From Chloroflexota bacterium (GTDB taxonomy: Bacteria > Chloroflexota > Anaerolineae > Anaerolineales > VGOW01), in NCBI GenBank assembly GCA_016197225.1, contig JACPWC010000014.1, forward strand, positions 1-64,000: DNA of 64,000 bases. The letters are read 5' to 3'. The notes beneath the pieces are model-generated. The model had not been told where the DNA came from, made no database searches, and was given only the letters and a program-made list of their open reading frames with translations. Of the stretch, positions 17,566 to 26,930 are shown piece after piece (within the stretch, counting starts at the first letter, position 1; each line of letters starts with the position of its first letter). The position numbers were made by a program, and so were the translations under genes.

Positions 17566-18449
17566 TCTCTCTCGCCGCCATTTCTCTCACGCCCTCAGCT
17601 CGCGAATGGCTCTCGGCAACCACGACCGCTCGCGTCCTCAACTCTTTTGACCGCGCCTGCAATCTCATCAATCAAAACAACGACATCCTGGCCCTGGTGG
17701 CCTCTGAGCGCGGCCTGACTCCGTTTGCGATGGTCGTGGCTTCGGAAGAGCGGTTTCCTTTTCGGGCGGTGACGGAGTCGAGCATAGTGAGGATTGAAAG
17801 CCGGCGCTTCAGCGTTGGGCCTTTGCAAATCACGATTGATACGCCGCGCCTGTGGAACCCGATTCCGGATTGGGCGGCAGTGCGGCAGATGTTTGCCGAT
17901 CACTTTGAACTGCCTGAAGCTTTGCCGGCAACGGCGCTGGAAGTTTCTCCCGCCGGTAGTCTGCTTGAGTTGTTTCTGAGTCCTGAGAGGCGAACCGCCA
18001 GCGCGCCGATGCTTGACCGGGCGGCGCAAGGGGCCAACAAACTTGTCGCCGGCTTGCATGCCGGCTCACTTGAACAGTGTGTTGCGGGCGCAAAAATGCT
18101 GGCCGGGGCCGGTGGCGGGCTGACTCCAGCGGGCGATGATTTCATCGTCGGCGTGTTGCTTGCGGCGTGGGCCGGACTCTTCGGCGAGCGAAGCGAGGGC
18201 AGGGAGCAGATGGGGCAAGCCATCGCACAGACGGCGGCCCCGTTGACGACGACGTTGTCGGCGGCGTATCTGCATGCGGCGGCGCGGGGTGAGTGTATGA
18301 TCCACTGGCACGATCTCTTTGCGGCGTTGTTGGCCTCAAATGAGTCTGCTGTGCGTGAGGCCCTTCGAGCATTGACTTCTGTGGGCCACACTTCTGGCGC
18401 GGATGCGTTGGCCGGATTTCTTTTTGTTGGCGTGAAGGAACTTTCGTAA
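17562..18449 (+). CDS. ylbF: DUF2877 protein (YlbF/AllH-like), carbamoyltransferase subunit
   Basis: 295 residues; E. coli YlbF is ~271. The DUF2877 signature GAGGGLTPAGDDFIVGVLLAAW lies around residues 183-204. In E. coli, and in most genomes, this gene accompanies fdrA and ylbE; here it is 4.6 kb from the DUF1116 gene but in the same overlapping run (ATGA overlap on the left, TAATG on the right), which supports a three-component carbamoyltransferase. Annotation of the family as AllH is from recent E. coli work; the substrate here may differ because the neighbours are dihydropyrimidinases rather than allantoinase. Confidence 0.88.
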   Translation: MISLAAISLTPSAREWLSATTTARVLNSFDRACNLINQNNDILALVASERGLTPFAMVVASEERFPFRAVTESSIVRIESRRFSVGPLQITIDTPRLWNPIPDWAAVRQMFADHFELPEALPATALEVSPAGSLLELFLSPERRTASAPMLDRAAQGANKLVAGLHAGSLEQCVAGAKMLAGAGGGLTPAGDDFIVGVLLAAWAGLFGERSEGREQMGQAIAQTAAPLTTTLSAAYLHAAARGECMIHWHDLFAALLASNESAVREALRALTSVGHTSGADALAGFLFVGVKELS

Positions 18450-19870
18450 TGAAGACATTGCTCAAAGGTGGGACAGTGGTCACCGCCTCAGACACGATTC
18501 AAGCGGACGTGTTGATTGACGGGGAAACCGTCGTCTTGCTGGGACAGAGTTTGCCTGAAGATGAAGCCGTCGTTGTGGACGCGTCCGGAAAATTTATTCT
18601 GCCGGGGGCGATTGACGTTCACACCCACCTCGATCTGCCCATGATGGGCACTTGCTCGTCGGACGATTTTTACACCGGCCACAAAGCGGCGGCCTTTGGC
18701 GGCACGACGAGCCACATTGATTTTGCCATTCAGTCCAAAGGCGAAACTTTGTATCAGGCGCTCGAAGCATGGCACGCCAAAGCGCGCGAGAGGGCGGTGA
18801 TTGATTACGGCTTCCACATGACGATTACCGACCCAACCGAGGCGGCGCTGAATGAAATTCCGAGCATGGTCAACTACGGCGTCACCACCATCAAAATTCT
18901 CATGGCCTACAAGGGCCGCCTGCAAGTGGACGACACCGGACTCTTCAAGTCGCTGATCAAAACCGCCGAGGCCGGGATGTTGCTGATGGTTCATGCCGAG
19001 AACGGCGATGCGATTGAGGTGTTGATCCAGGATGCGCTGGCTCGCGGCAACCTTTCTCCTGTTCACCACGCCCTCACCCGCCCACACTGGTGTGAAGCCG
19101 AAGCCACTTTGCGGGCGATTGCGCTGGCCGCCGTCGCCGAAGCGCCGTTGTACGTGGTTCACATGACGTGTCAGGCGGCGGTGGAGCAGTTGACTTACGG
19201 GCGCGAGCGCGGCCTGAAGGTGATGGGCGAGACCTGCCCGCAATATCTCTTTTTCACCGCCGATAATTTGCGGCAGGAGGATGGCGCGAAATGGGTGTTC
19301 TCGCCGCCGGTTCGTACCAAGACCGACAACGAGTATTTGTGGCGGGCGTTGGCGCGTGGCGAACTGCAAACCATCGGCACCGATCATTGCCCTTTCCCGT
19401 TTGACGGGGACAAGCCGATGACTTACGAAGGCCAGCCGTTCTCTCGGGCGGGCAAAGAGTTGGGGCGCGACGACTTCACCAAGATTCCAAATGGCGCGCC
19501 GGGGATTCAAGACCGGATGCCCGTGTTGTGGACGTGTGGTGTCGGGGCTGGCCGTCTCACCGTGAACCAACTGGTGGAACTGTGTTGCACCCAACCGGCC
19601 AAGATTTTCGGCCTCTATCCGCGCAAAGGCACGGTTGCGGTTGGCTCGGATGCCGACCTGGTGGTATGGGATCCGAAACTCAGGAAGACGATGGGGGTTG
19701 CTACATCACACCAGCGCACCGACTATAATTTGTACGAAGGCAAGGAAGTGACCGGCTGGCCGGAGAAGGTGTTTTCGCGTGGCCGCCTGCTGGTGGATGG
19801 CGACAGGTGGCACGGCAAAGCGGGCACGGGTGCGTATCTGGCGCGCAAGGCGCACGCGTTGGTGCTATGA
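18449..19870 (+). CDS. hydA: Dihydropyrimidinase/hydantoinase (first of a tandem pair)
   Basis: Amidohydrolase that opens dihydropyrimidine or hydantoin rings to N-carbamoyl amino acids. 473 residues. Binuclear metal ligands are visible: H58 and H60 in DVHTHLDLP, the carboxylated lysine K155 in LMAYKG, H182 in VHAENGD, a later His in YVVHMTC, and the Asp in GTDHCPF. It shares most of these blocks, and exact length, with the gene at 20192. It overlaps the DUF2877 stop (TAATG). The expected N-carbamoyl product is a plausible donor for the FdrA/DUF1116/DUF2877 enzyme. Confidence 0.94.
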   Translation: MKTLLKGGTVVTASDTIQADVLIDGETVVLLGQSLPEDEAVVVDASGKFILPGAIDVHTHLDLPMMGTCSSDDFYTGHKAAAFGGTTSHIDFAIQSKGETLYQALEAWHAKARERAVIDYGFHMTITDPTEAALNEIPSMVNYGVTTIKILMAYKGRLQVDDTGLFKSLIKTAEAGMLLMVHAENGDAIEVLIQDALARGNLSPVHHALTRPHWCEAEATLRAIALAAVAEAPLYVVHMTCQAAVEQLTYGRERGLKVMGETCPQYLFFTADNLRQEDGAKWVFSPPVRTKTDNEYLWRALARGELQTIGTDHCPFPFDGDKPMTYEGQPFSRAGKELGRDDFTKIPNGAPGIQDRMPVLWTCGVGAGRLTVNQLVELCCTQPAKIFGLYPRKGTVAVGSDADLVVWDPKLRKTMGVATSHQRTDYNLYEGKEVTGWPEKVFSRGRLLVDGDRWHGKAGTGAYLARKAHALVL

Positions 19871-20123: not shown

Positions 20124-20170
20124 GCTCGCCAAACCCTTAGGGTCTCCAAGACCCTAAGGGTTTGGCGAGC
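20124..20170. repeat. Perfect 22-bp palindrome (AAACCCTTAGGGTCT family)
   Basis: GCTCGCCAAACCCTTAGGGTCT (20124-20145) and its exact complement at 20149-20170 are separated by three bases. Shorter relatives are at 23505-23537, 44174-44203 and 63739-63780. It lies just before the Shine-Dalgarno of the second hydantoinase, so it could form a hairpin in the leader. Confidence 0.85.
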
Positions 20171-20191
20171 AGGCTCTTAGGAGGCTCACTT

Positions 20192-21613
20192 ATGAAAACC
20201 CTTATCAAAAATGGAACCCTTGTCACCGCTGCCGAAAGCTTCAAGGCTGACCTGTTGATGGACGATGGCAAGATCGCCCTTATCGGCGCGAGCTTGCCTG
20301 CTGGCGATGCTCAGGTGGTGGATGCAACTGGCAAGTATGTTCTGCCGGGGGCGATTGATGTCCACACGCACCTCGAACTGCCCTTTGGCGGCACGGTGTC
20401 GTCCGACGATTTTTACAGCGGCCACAAGGCGGCGGCCTTCGGCGGCACGACCTTCCACATTGACTTTGCCATTCAGGCCAAAGGCGAAACTTTACACCAG
20501 ACCGTCGAACGCTGGCACAAAAAGTCCGACCACAAGGCCGTGCTGGACTTCGGCTATCACATGGCGATTGCCGACCTGACCGACGATGTGCTGAATGAAA
20601 TTCCGAAGATGGGGCCGGAGGGCATTCCGTCCCTCAAACTGTTCATGGCCTACAAAGGCATCTTGCAAGTTGACGACACGACTCTGTTCAAGACGCTGAT
20701 GAAGGCCGCCGAGGCCGGGATGCTGGTGATGGTTCACGCCGAGAACGGCGACGCGATTGACGTGCTGGTGAAAAAGGCGCTGGCCGAAGGCCATACCGCG
20801 CCGGAATGGCACGCCCTCACCCGGCCCGACTGGGTGGAAGGGGAAGCGACGGGGCGGGCGGTGGCCCTGGCCGGGGTGGCCGGCGCCCCGTTGTACGTCG
20901 TTCACGTCACCTGTGCCAAAGCGGTTGATCAACTCGCTTATGGCCGCGCGCGCGGTCTCAACGTGATGGGCGAGACGTGCGTCCAGTATTTCCACTTTAC
21001 GGTTGACGACCTGCGCAAGCCGGACGGCGCCAAGTGGGTGTGCTCGCCGCCGGTGCGCACCAAAGCCGACAATGCTTACTTGTGGAACGCGGTGAAGACC
21101 AACGCCCTGCAAGTCGTCTCCACCGATCACTGCCCGTTCTTGTATGATGGCACGAAGGGGATCGAATACGAAGGCCAGCCGTTCCAGATCGCGGGCAAGG
21201 AGTTGGGCAAGGGCGACTTCTCTAAGATTCCGAATGGCCTGCCGTGCATTGAAGACCGGATGTTGATTTTGTGGAGCTACGGCGTGGGGCAGGGCCACTT
21301 CAGCATGAACCGCCTGGTGGAGTTGACCAGCACCAACCCGGCCAAGATTTTTGGGCTGTATCCAAAGAAAGGGACATTGGCAGTTGGTTGTGACGCCGAT
21401 GTTGCGATCTGGGATCCAAATAAGAAGAGAACGATGAGCGCCGCCAACTCGCACCAGCGAACAGACTACAACTTGTATGAAGGATGGGAGATCACGGGCG
21501 CGCCGGAGAAAGTTTACCGGCGCGGCGAACTGCTGGTGGACGGCGACAAATGGCATGGCAAGCCAGGCACGGGCAAGTGGGTGCCGCGCTCAACGCACGC
21601 GCCGATCGTATAA
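20192..21613 (+). CDS. hydA: Dihydropyrimidinase/hydantoinase (second of a tandem pair)
   Basis: 473 residues, clearly a paralogue of the gene at 18449 (same length, collinear motifs). Metal ligands are intact: DVHTHLELP, LFMAYKG, VHAENGD, YVVHVTC and TDHCPF. The start at 20192 has a strong AGGAGG Shine-Dalgarno, unlike the overlapping starts upstream, so it may be translated independently. Differences in the substrate loop region (CSPPVRTKADNAYLWNAVK versus FSPPVRTKTDNEYLWRALA) could mean a different ring specificity. Both copies look functional. Confidence 0.94.
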   Translation: MKTLIKNGTLVTAAESFKADLLMDDGKIALIGASLPAGDAQVVDATGKYVLPGAIDVHTHLELPFGGTVSSDDFYSGHKAAAFGGTTFHIDFAIQAKGETLHQTVERWHKKSDHKAVLDFGYHMAIADLTDDVLNEIPKMGPEGIPSLKLFMAYKGILQVDDTTLFKTLMKAAEAGMLVMVHAENGDAIDVLVKKALAEGHTAPEWHALTRPDWVEGEATGRAVALAGVAGAPLYVVHVTCAKAVDQLAYGRARGLNVMGETCVQYFHFTVDDLRKPDGAKWVCSPPVRTKADNAYLWNAVKTNALQVVSTDHCPFLYDGTKGIEYEGQPFQIAGKELGKGDFSKIPNGLPCIEDRMLILWSYGVGQGHFSMNRLVELTSTNPAKIFGLYPKKGTLAVGCDADVAIWDPNKKRTMSAANSHQRTDYNLYEGWEITGAPEKVYRRGELLVDGDKWHGKPGTGKWVPRSTHAPIV

Positions 21614-23504: not shown

Positions 23505-23537
23505 AAACCCTAAAAGTCTTCAAGACCTTTAGGGTTT
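23505..23537. terminator. Hairpin between convergent genes (AAACCCTAAAG family), probable bidirectional terminator
   Basis: AAACCCTAAA (23505-23514) pairs with TTTAGGGTTT (23528-23537) with additional pairing of AAGTCTT and AAGACCT inside. It sits in the 49-base gap between two convergent genes. It belongs to the repeat family also seen at 20124 and 44174; a terminator role is inferred from position. Confidence 0.55.
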
Positions 23538-23549
23538 GGAAATAGGCCC

Positions 23550-24092
23550 TCAGGTTTTCACCGCCTTGAGTACGTCGGCGATTTCCGGGTAATCTCCAGC
23601 ATAATCGTTGACGTAAACATAGCGAATGATGCCCGTCTGAGCGACGACGAACAGGCCGCCGAGCATAGCCGTGTCTCCGGTTGCCCGGCCTTGGGTGAAA
23701 CCGGCTTGAGTGGCGCGAATGCTGGCAACGTATAACTTAGGCTCCAGCAGCTGACCCAGCCCGCGGCGCTTGAGGCCCCAGGCGAAATGAACGTCGTTCG
23801 TCTCATTTGCCAGGCAGGTGACGCTGGGCGCAAGTTTGCCGCCGTACCTCGCGGCGTGTTTTGGCTTGCCAATACCGACCGCCACAATTTTCAAACCGGC
23901 GGCCCTGATTTCATCTTTGTTCTGCTCCAACTGAGCAAGCATGTGGCGGCAGTGTAGTCAGCCAAAGTGCCGCAGGAAGGTGAGCAGGACCGGCCCGTCA
24001 CGCCAGGTTTCGGCCAGCGCCACTGGCTGGCCGTTCACATCCAACACAATACTTTCCGGCGCGCGGTCGCCGACGTTGAGTTTGCTTTCCAC
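23550..24092 (-). CDS. Probable selenocysteine-containing peroxiredoxin-like protein (UGA at the peroxidatic position)
   Basis: Thioredoxin-fold AhpC/TSA-like (PRXL2-type) antioxidant protein of about 180 residues. The frame runs from a GTG at 24092 (AAGG nine bases upstream), through one in-frame TGA at 23960-23958, to the stop at 23550, with no frameshift. The TGA is codon 45 and falls where the family motif FLRHFG-C-x-x-C-R has its first cysteine: here FLRHFG-U-L-H-C-R, with C48 intact. The N-terminal part (VGDRAPESIVLDVNG) and the C-terminal part (GIGKPKHAARYGG, then LYVASIRATQAGFTQGRA) fit one protein. A hairpin meeting the bacterial SECIS pattern follows the UGA. The alternative is a nonsense mutation or sequencing error. 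An in-frame ATG exists at 24140 without a good ribosome-binding site. Confidence 0.78.
23922..23943 (-). promoter_or_regulatory. Candidate bacterial SECIS hairpin for UGA recoding
   Basis: In the mRNA, UUGCUC (23938-23933) pairs with GAGCAG (23927-23922) around a 5-nt apical loop AGUUG. The loop begins 25 nt after the UGA, inside the 16-37 nt window known for bSECIS elements, and one of its first two bases is G, as the consensus requires. Lower pairing CAU/AUG may extend the stem. SelB binding is inferred, not shown. Confidence 0.65.
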
Positions 24093-24149
24093 TGAGTCTA
24101 GCCTTTCGTCATAGAGTTTGGAGCAAGGCAATTCTATCAAACATCTTGT

Positions 24150-24273: not shown

Positions 24274-25179
24274 ATGTCCGCTCAACCTTCCTCCGATCGC
24301 AAAAAAATAACCACCCTCACCTTTCGCCAGCGCAAAGAGCACGGCGAGGCGATCTCTATGCTGACGGCATATGATTACGCCACTGCATTGGCCGCCGACC
24401 AGGCCGGGATCGACTCTCTGCTGGTCGGCGATTCGCTGGGCATGGTGGTGCTGGGCTATGAGAACACGCTTCAGGTCACGATGGAGGACATGCTTCATCA
24501 TGCCAAAGCCGTGTCGCGTGGCGCCAGGAAATCGTTGCTCATTGGCGACATGCCCTTCATGTCGTATCAGGTTTCGGCAACCGAGGCGGTGCGTAATGCT
24601 GGCCGTTTTTTGGCCGAAGCCGGGATGGATGCCGTCAAGCTGGAGGGCGGGCGCGAAGTCGCGTCCACCATCGAAGCAATTATCAACGCCGGCATTCCAG
24701 TGGTCGGCCACATCGGCCTTACACCGCAGTCCATTCACAAACTCGGCGGCTACCGCGCACAGGGCCGCACCGCCCGCGCCGCCCGTCATTTGCTTGAGGA
24801 CGCCCTCATTCTGGAAGACTCGGGGTGTTTTGCGGTGGTGTTCGAAGCGGTGCCCGACCGCCTGGCAGAGTTGATCTCACAAAAGCTCACTATTCCTACC
24901 ATTGGCATTGGAGCCGGGGCCGGGTGTGACGGACAGGTGCTCGTCACCCACGATTTGCTTGGCCTGTTCGACCGTTTCACGCCCAAGTTCGTCAAGCGGT
25001 ACGCCGACCTGAATGCTGAAATGTTGCGCGCCTTTGCGGAATACAAAAAGGACGTGGCGACTCATGTTTTCCCGGCTGAAGAACACGCTTACTCAATCCC
25101 CGACGACGAATGGCGCGCTTTGTTGACCGATCTCGAATCAGAGCCGATCGAGTATCCTCATCACCTGCACCTGGCGTAA
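24274..25179 (+). CDS. panB: 3-methyl-2-oxobutanoate hydroxymethyltransferase
   Basis: First dedicated step of pantothenate synthesis: transfers a hydroxymethyl group from 5,10-methylene-THF to ketoisovalerate, giving ketopantoate. 301 residues including a hydrophilic N-terminal extension. The metal and substrate blocks MLTAYDYATALAADQAGID, LLVGDSLGMVVLGYENT and KLEGG are present, and the catalytic Glu lies in VVFEAVP. First of three adjacent pan genes. It starts after a strong ribosome-binding site. Confidence 0.96.
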   Translation: MSAQPSSDRKKITTLTFRQRKEHGEAISMLTAYDYATALAADQAGIDSLLVGDSLGMVVLGYENTLQVTMEDMLHHAKAVSRGARKSLLIGDMPFMSYQVSATEAVRNAGRFLAEAGMDAVKLEGGREVASTIEAIINAGIPVVGHIGLTPQSIHKLGGYRAQGRTARAARHLLEDALILEDSGCFAVVFEAVPDRLAELISQKLTIPTIGIGAGAGCDGQVLVTHDLLGLFDRFTPKFVKRYADLNAEMLRAFAEYKKDVATHVFPAEEHAYSIPDDEWRALLTDLESEPIEYPHHLHLA

Positions 25180-25191
25180 ACGATAGCAAAC

Positions 25192-26097
25192 ATGTTCGTC
25201 ATCGTCGGCACGGGTGCGCTCGCTTCGTTGTTTGCGGCGCGGCTGGCCCGCTGCACCTCAGGCCCGCTGTGGATGCTGGGCACTTGGGCGGAAGCCGTCG
25301 CGGCTATCAACACCACGGGGATCGTAGTGGAAACCGGGTCGGGCGCGGAAACCGTTCGTGTAAAAGCGACGGCTGACCCTGATCAGTGTTCCGGCGCGGA
25401 AGCCGCCATCGTGCTGGTAAAGTCATGGCAAACAGGACGAGCGGCCAGACAGATCACCTCGTTTCTCGCTCCGTCGGGTGTGGCCCTCACGTTGCAAAAC
25501 GGCCTGGGTAATCTGGAGACGCTCGGCGCAGAACTGGGCGTGGAGCGGACAGCGCTTGGTATTACGATGCAGGGCGCAACTTTGCTTGGCCCGGGCCGCG
25601 TGCGAGAAGGCGGGCGCGGCCCAATTCACCTGGCCGATCACCCTCGACTTGGCTCAGTTGTTGCGCTTCTTCGCGATGGCGGTTTTGAAGTTCATCTTGC
25701 GCCTGACGTTACGCCGCTGATCTGGGGTAAGCTCGTCGTCAACGCGGCCATCAACGCCCTCACTGCCTTGCTTCGCGTCACAAACGGCGAGTTGCTCAAC
25801 CGGCCCTCGGCGCTAGCCCTGGCCGACGAAGCCGCCCGCGAAGTTGCCGCCGTAGCCGCCGCTAAAAACATCACCTTGCCTTTTTCTGATCCTGTCTTGC
25901 GCGCTCATGAAGTGATGCGCCTGACCGCTCACAACCGCTCCTCGATGCTTCAGGATGTGTTGCGTAACGCGCCAACCGAAGTGGAGGCGATTAATGGCGC
26001 GGTGGTTCGTGAGGCGCATGTTTTGAATGTGAGTACGCCTGTCAATGAAATGTTATGGCGGCTGGTGACGGCCCTTGCCCAAGAACACTCAACATGA
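25192..26097 (+). CDS. panE: 2-dehydropantoate 2-reductase
   Basis: Reduces ketopantoate to pantoate with NADPH. 301 residues. The Rossmann loop is at the very N-terminus (IVGTGALASLFAARLA), with the KSWQT and LTLQNGLGN blocks after it and the catalytic lysine region WGKLVVNAAINALTAL in the C-terminal domain. It lies 12 bases after panB and overlaps panC by ATGA, so panB-panE-panC form one operon covering pantoate formation and its condensation with beta-alanine. Confidence 0.93.
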   Translation: MFVIVGTGALASLFAARLARCTSGPLWMLGTWAEAVAAINTTGIVVETGSGAETVRVKATADPDQCSGAEAAIVLVKSWQTGRAARQITSFLAPSGVALTLQNGLGNLETLGAELGVERTALGITMQGATLLGPGRVREGGRGPIHLADHPRLGSVVALLRDGGFEVHLAPDVTPLIWGKLVVNAAINALTALLRVTNGELLNRPSALALADEAAREVAAVAAAKNITLPFSDPVLRAHEVMRLTAHNRSSMLQDVLRNAPTEVEAINGAVVREAHVLNVSTPVNEMLWRLVTALAQEHST

Positions 26098-26930
26098 ATA
26101 CTTTTGCCACGATTTCCGATCTCCGTCGCGCCCGCCTTGCCCTCGCCGGCACACTCGGCCTGGCGCCGACGATGGGCGCTCTCCACGAAGGCCACCTCTC
26201 GCTGGTTCGCCGGGCCAAAGCCGAAAACGATCATGTGGGCGTGAGCATCTTTGTCAACCCGGCTCAGTTTGGGCCAAATGAAGACCTTAGCCGCTATCCG
26301 CGCGATCTGGATCGTGACTTGAGCCTGCTGGCTGAAGCCGGGGCTGATCTGGTGTGGACGCCGACTCCTGAAATCGTGTACCCGCCCGGTTTCCAAACCT
26401 TTGTCGCCGTCGAACAAGTCGCTTTGCCGCTTGAAGGGCAGGCCCGCCCCGGCCATTTTCGCGGTGTGGCGACTGTCGTCGCCAAACTCTTCAATGTCTT
26501 CACGCCCGATCGCGCTTACTTCGGCCAGAAAGACGCTCAACAAGTGGCCGTCATCAAACGCATGGCCGATGATCTCAATTTTCCACTTGAGATTGTCGCC
26601 TGCCCAACTGTGCGCGAGCCGGACGGTTTGGCAATGAGCAGTCGTAATGCTTACCTTAGCCCAGACGAGCGCAAGGCCGCCACTGTTTTATATCGCGCTC
26701 TTTCCGCCGCTAGAAATGCTTTCGACAAAGGCGAGCGGGGAGGTGATACGTTGCGCGCCATCCTTTCTTCGACAATTGCCGGCGAGCCGCTGGCTCGGAT
26801 AGATTATGTTTCTGTGGCTGACCACCGCACACTGACGGAATTGGACCGAATTCCTGACAACGGTGTTTTGCTTTCGCTGGCGGTGAGGATTGGGGCAACG
26901 CGGTTGATTGATAACTTCTTGCTGGAATAA
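26094..26930 (+). CDS. panC: Pantothenate synthetase
   Basis: ATP-dependent condensation of pantoate with beta-alanine. 278 residues. Nucleotidylyltransferase motifs are clear: PTMGALHEGHLSLVRRA (HxGH-type), FVNPAQFGPNEDLSRYPRD, FGQKDAQQ and the KMSKS-like MSSRNAYLS. The start ATG at 26094 overlaps the panE stop; an upstream in-frame ATG at 26055 lies inside panE and is not used. No panD is seen in the window, so the source of beta-alanine is open; dihydropyrimidinase products are one possibility. Confidence 0.96.
   Translation: MNTFATISDLRRARLALAGTLGLAPTMGALHEGHLSLVRRAKAENDHVGVSIFVNPAQFGPNEDLSRYPRDLDRDLSLLAEAGADLVWTPTPEIVYPPGFQTFVAVEQVALPLEGQARPGHFRGVATVVAKLFNVFTPDRAYFGQKDAQQVAVIKRMADDLNFPLEIVACPTVREPDGLAMSSRNAYLSPDERKAATVLYRALSAARNAFDKGERGGDTLRAILSSTIAGEPLARIDYVSVADHRTLTELDRIPDNGVLLSLAVRIGATRLIDNFLLE

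Follow-up and report, generated by a model that had tools for sequence, protein, structure and literature searches.

Gene Organization and the Interrupted Frame

The window (the whole stretch of 64,000 nucleotides analysed here) belongs to a draft genome of 4.8 Mb and carries, on the minus strand at 23550..24092, a GTG-initiated frame of 180 codons plus a stop codon. Its sole interruption is a TGA at codon 45 (23958..23960, minus strand), the TGA at its end being the stop. When this internal codon is translated as selenocysteine (Sec), the residues around it read exactly FLRHFG-U-L-H-C-R, and the second cysteine of the motif, Cys48, is encoded at 23949..23951 (minus strand). The initial annotation had described a minus-strand frame open except for one TGA at codon 45, lying inside an FLRHFG-C-x-x-C-R motif with the second cysteine kept, and translation confirmed both statements. 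As the GC content by codon position is similar 5' and 3' of the TGA, both flanks look coding. A standard ORF listing contains only the ATG ORF 3' of the TGA (23550..23942, 130 amino acids), and standard annotation would cut the gene short, dropping its active site.

A possible ribosome-binding site, AAAGG, is located 9 nt 5' of the GTG (24102..24106, minus strand), as judged from the sequence only. Beyond the other end of the gene, an inverted repeat assigned to neither strand, AAACCCTAAAGGTCT-TGA-AGACTTTTAGGGTTT (23505..23537), has a computed fold of -20.5 kcal/mol and is a probable terminator common to the selenoprotein gene and a convergent GGDEF gene; it is absent from the list given by the terminator scan. 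The consecutive pantothenate genes panB-panE-panC (24274-26930, plus strand) are divergent from the selenoprotein gene, and the ORFs listed for panE and panC overlap. Elsewhere in the window, two adjoining amidohydrolase (dihydropyrimidinase-like) genes on the plus strand (18449-19870 and 20162-21613) look like a tandem duplication.

Conservation of the UGA Codon in Homologues

Among distinct homologous sequences, 55 have UGA exactly at this position and 24 have a Cys codon. In an alignment of 36 full-length homologues, no residue other than Sec or Cys occurs at position 45, so the UGA site pairs with one or the other throughout, and Arg41 is the sole other invariant residue. The same codon is TGA in six homologues sharing 45-55% identity with the gene (L021-L026) and in one from the same class, outside the order (L072, 51% identity); more broadly, its conservation extends to homologues across many families within the phylum. 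A peptide-pattern scan of the contigs returned a single locus (L009), where the frame around the match is SCO-like and lacks the motif seen here.

In a maximum-likelihood tree of 65 sequences, about seven Sec/Cys changes are needed, so that the two states are clustered yet interconvert. In three relatives (L023, L024 and L025), the Sec gene is immediately preceded by a Cys (CxxC) paralogue in tandem with it. Since the tree puts this paralogue near the Sec clade of the gene studied here, the tandem pair may have arisen by duplication followed by a Sec-to-Cys change.

The presence of selA follows that of the TGA homologue: across 101 related genomes, it was detected in 42 of the 45 with a TGA homologue versus 33 of the 56 without (Fisher p = 7e-5, an indicative value, as the genomes are related and the TGA position was not individually checked for the weakest matches). 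Among the three genomes with a TGA homologue and no regular selA, one has selA split in two frames and two are drafts; selA was not found in the UGA-bearing relatives G009 and G060, both of them draft genomes.

The SECIS Hairpin

Immediately downstream of the UGA, a bacterial SECIS (bSECIS) hairpin, UUGCUC-AGUUG-GAGCAG, can be formed at 23922..23938 (minus strand). Its 6-bp stem and AGUUG loop are as initially described; the 25-nt distance given for its start is true of the loop, which begins at nt +26 after the UGA, and not of the stem, which begins at nt +20. Published rules for bSECIS elements specify a loop of 3-9 nt with a G in its first two positions, a stem of 4-16 bp, and a distance of 16-37 nt from the UGA (PMC13188914). 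With a 5-nt loop, 6 bp and a 25-nt spacer, the hairpin lies within these ranges, in agreement with the initial annotation. When the same peptide was recoded synonymously (n = 1000), an equally stable hairpin with a G in loop positions 1-2 was obtained in 0.8% of cases (p = 0.008).

The energy of the element is borderline with regard to the published limit (MFE <= -7.5 kcal/mol; PMC13188914). The hairpin by itself has about -5.8 to -6.8 kcal/mol; within the 40-55 nt after the UGA, an alternative fold, isoenergetic with the hairpin, reaches -7.1 kcal/mol, and the UGA plus 60 nt reaches -11.1 kcal/mol with the hairpin included. The main support for the hairpin is, strongly, its conservation across relatives, not its energy at this locus. 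Of the 55 distinct UGA genes, 47 have a hairpin whose loop contains GU (AGUU, GGU or GGUCU), versus 1 of the 24 Cys genes, and the hairpin energies of the two groups differ with p = 1e-6, a value that is only indicative for related, non-independent sequences. In the 18 members with a tetraloop, compensatory replacement of both bases is seen at five of the six stem pairs, and the covariation score of the stem is 0.594, versus 0.211 for shuffled sequences and at most 0.166 with the arms slid. The need to encode Gln-Leu may impose part of the constraint on the loop, but it can explain neither the covariation of the stem nor the absence of the hairpin in Cys genes.

Selenocysteine Machinery and Other Selenoprotein Genes

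The source genome contains selA, selB, selC and selD, all four of the genes for which it was checked. The tRNA-Sec is detected with 72.6 bits (anticodon TCA according to ARAGORN), selA with 537 bits, selB with 356 bits, C-terminal part included, and selD with 371 bits. The selD gene (L019, C37:1757-2695) itself has one in-frame TGA, in ...SCAGUAAKLDP, and would thus encode a Sec-containing selenophosphate synthetase. Mis-binning of the contig was considered; as the panB beside the selenoprotein gene is closest (77%) to a genome of the same genus, the placement of the contig is supported. In that genus, selA is above the cut-off in the four other genomes (4/4).

A scan of the genome for AhpC-TSA proteins yielded two further TGA genes, which probably encode additional selenoproteins. 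One (L107, C9:56576-56935) is TlpA/ResA-like, with the motif FGUINC followed by what appears to be a textbook SECIS, AUUCCCUC-GGU-GAGGGAAU, with an 8-bp stem and its loop at +27. The other (L102, C44:16471-16851) is PrxQ-like, with the motif FTDTU, in which Sec occupies the true peroxidatic position.

Family Assignment and Active Site

The product matches the NF040769 model (SelL-related redox protein) over residues 10-177 (E 3.7e-34), that is, at full length, with a score of 117.8-117.9 bits, just under the curated cut-off of 120. As the score is below this cut-off, the protein is related to NF040769 rather than a formal member of it. All 36 aligned homologues match the same model. The product also scores above the cut-offs of PF00578 (AhpC-TSA; 45.9 bits, cut-off 26), with U45-L-H-C48 as a UxxC motif, and of PF13911 (AhpC-TSA_2, PRXL2 group; 39.3 bits, cut-off 27), whose xGCxxCR motif is present with Sec for the first Cys. 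Neither the UxxU motif of selenoprotein L (SelL) proper, UxxC standing in its place, nor the classical peroxiredoxin signature PxxxTxxC/U is found in it.

The position of Sec45 was assessed by comparison with characterized folds. Aligned on Mycobacterium AhpE, the family profile places ...FlRHfGClfCre... over ...FFPLAFTGICQGE..., so that Cys48 falls on Cys45, the peroxidatic residue of AhpE, and Sec45 on Thr42 of TxxC. The best full-length match of solved structure is PRXL2B (prostamide/prostaglandin F synthase, PDB 9us9; E 2.3e-7), in which LRRFGCVVCR lies under LRHFGULHCR. The ResA motif aligns in the same region, and in both PRXL2B and ResA the counterpart of Sec45 is the first Cys of CxxC. 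On the basis of these three alignments, Sec45 is assigned to the thioredoxin-type nucleophile position, and Cys48 is its expected resolving partner. The initial placement of Sec at the peroxidatic position is contradicted by the AhpE alignment. The description of the protein as peroxiredoxin-like stands insofar as PF00578 is concerned, but not in the sense of a classical peroxiredoxin, a thioredoxin-like UxxC oxidoreductase being indicated instead. A reaction of Sec45 with peroxides could nevertheless be conceived by analogy, since the Sec of glutathione peroxidase (UxxT) reacts with them. A single-sequence AlphaFold2 model of the selenoprotein has a pLDDT of 32.

Peroxiredoxin (Prx)-like thiol:disulfide oxidoreductases with UxxC or UxxU motifs are a known prokaryotic selenoprotein family (PMC9312934, PMC13188914, PMC1794560). 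The gene resembles them by its AhpC-TSA domain, its UxxC, a SECIS immediately following its UGA, and the existence of Cys homologues elsewhere, and no kind-defining difference was found in a comparison made by these features. It shares with SelL the full-length match and a Sec in the redox motif, but differs by its UxxC, where SelL, as well as the related loci L036, L038, L053 and L055, has UxxU. With PRXL2B and the PRXL2/SelU group, the likeness lies in FGCVVCR aligned to FGULHCR and in the PF13911 score; the solved enzyme, however, has Cys in both places, the similarity is distant, and the substrate need not coincide. AhpE (Rv2238c) and PrxQ/Bcp belong to the same fold family by sequence, and C48 occupies the position of their peroxidatic Cys, but in these peroxiredoxins the place of Sec45 is taken by Thr. 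Sequence comparison thus points to an additional member, or a close outlier, of the already catalogued SelL-related/Prx-like selenoproteins.

Interpretation and Alternative Explanations

The position of the UGA, the conservation of the SECIS, the Sec machinery, and the family were all established computationally. The explanation retained, with a probability of about 0.95, is that 23550..24092 encodes a selenoprotein in which UGA45 is decoded as Sec through the hairpin and SelB, yielding a thioredoxin-fold SelL-related/Prx-like/PRXL2 product with a U-x-x-C active site. The core of the initial annotation, Sec at a redox-active site served by a bacterial SECIS, is upheld. From these data, we infer the translation, chemistry, substrate type, and electron donor. 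The hairpin just 3' of UGA45 would recruit SelB with Sec-tRNA(UCA), the Sec being supplied by SelA and SelD, and UGA45 would be read as selenocysteine; the recognition of bSECIS elements is specific to the species in part. The selenolate of Sec45 would most likely attack a substrate in its oxidised form, either a disulfide or a hydroperoxide; Cys48 would then resolve it as a selenenylsulfide, and a thiol donor such as thioredoxin would reduce the latter.

The reading of the initial annotation, a classical peroxiredoxin (1-Cys/2-Cys) with Sec in place of the peroxidatic Cys, can draw on the PF00578 match, the sequence similarity to AhpE, and the genuine TxxU peroxiredoxin encoded elsewhere in the genome. 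We consider it very improbable, given the missing PxxxTxxC signature, the alignment of AhpE Cys45 and Thr42 with Cys48 and Sec45, respectively, and the presence of FGCxxCR at this site in PRXL2B, the best full-length PDB match. The two explanations that dispense with Sec deserve still less credence. The first, a Cys gene (now a pseudogene) whose TGA is due to nonsense mutation or sequencing error, would fit a codon one point change away from TGC/TGT and the existence of Cys homologues, but it is made highly implausible by the recurrence of UGA at this codon, together with covarying hairpins, in dozens of independent genomes, by an intact frame and codon bias on either side, and by a full Sec machinery. 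Just as implausible is a separate shorter gene starting at the downstream ATG (23942-23550), the upstream part not being co-translated: mechanical ORF calling does deliver this 130-amino acid ORF with its ATG at 23942, but the 44 upstream codons match the N-terminus and conserved residues of the family, and the short form would be devoid of either active-site residue. A promoter-like site for it was not found, in a scan of little power.

With the selenoprotein reading, the established view of Sec decoding is unchanged. The gene and its relatives indicate that this order commonly has Sec-dependent SelL-like redox proteins, in which Sec and Cys alternate naturally and the SECIS covariation is well defined; they are useful for annotation and for testing the gain offered by Sec over Cys.

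Relatives with Two UGA Codons

The UxxU members of the family (L053, at 73-630 on the minus strand, L036, L038 and L055) have two UGA codons 9 nt apart, followed by only one hairpin. Counted from the first UGA of L053, the loop is at +26; counted from the second, it is at +17. As the loop is also at +17 in single-Sec relatives (L058, L059, L062 and L066), one hairpin may serve both UGAs. In SelL, the two Sec are two residues apart and, in animals, a single SECIS is used for both (PMC3316567). A bolder proposal, rather unlikely in our opinion, is that the Sec clade (the gene itself, L021-L026 and L072) might form a separate SelL-like subfamily acting on a substrate of its own, and that, in the family at large, the UxxU members would use one short SECIS for two UGAs. 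If one short element did serve two UGAs, bacterial Sec decoding would accept a loop at +17 or at +26.
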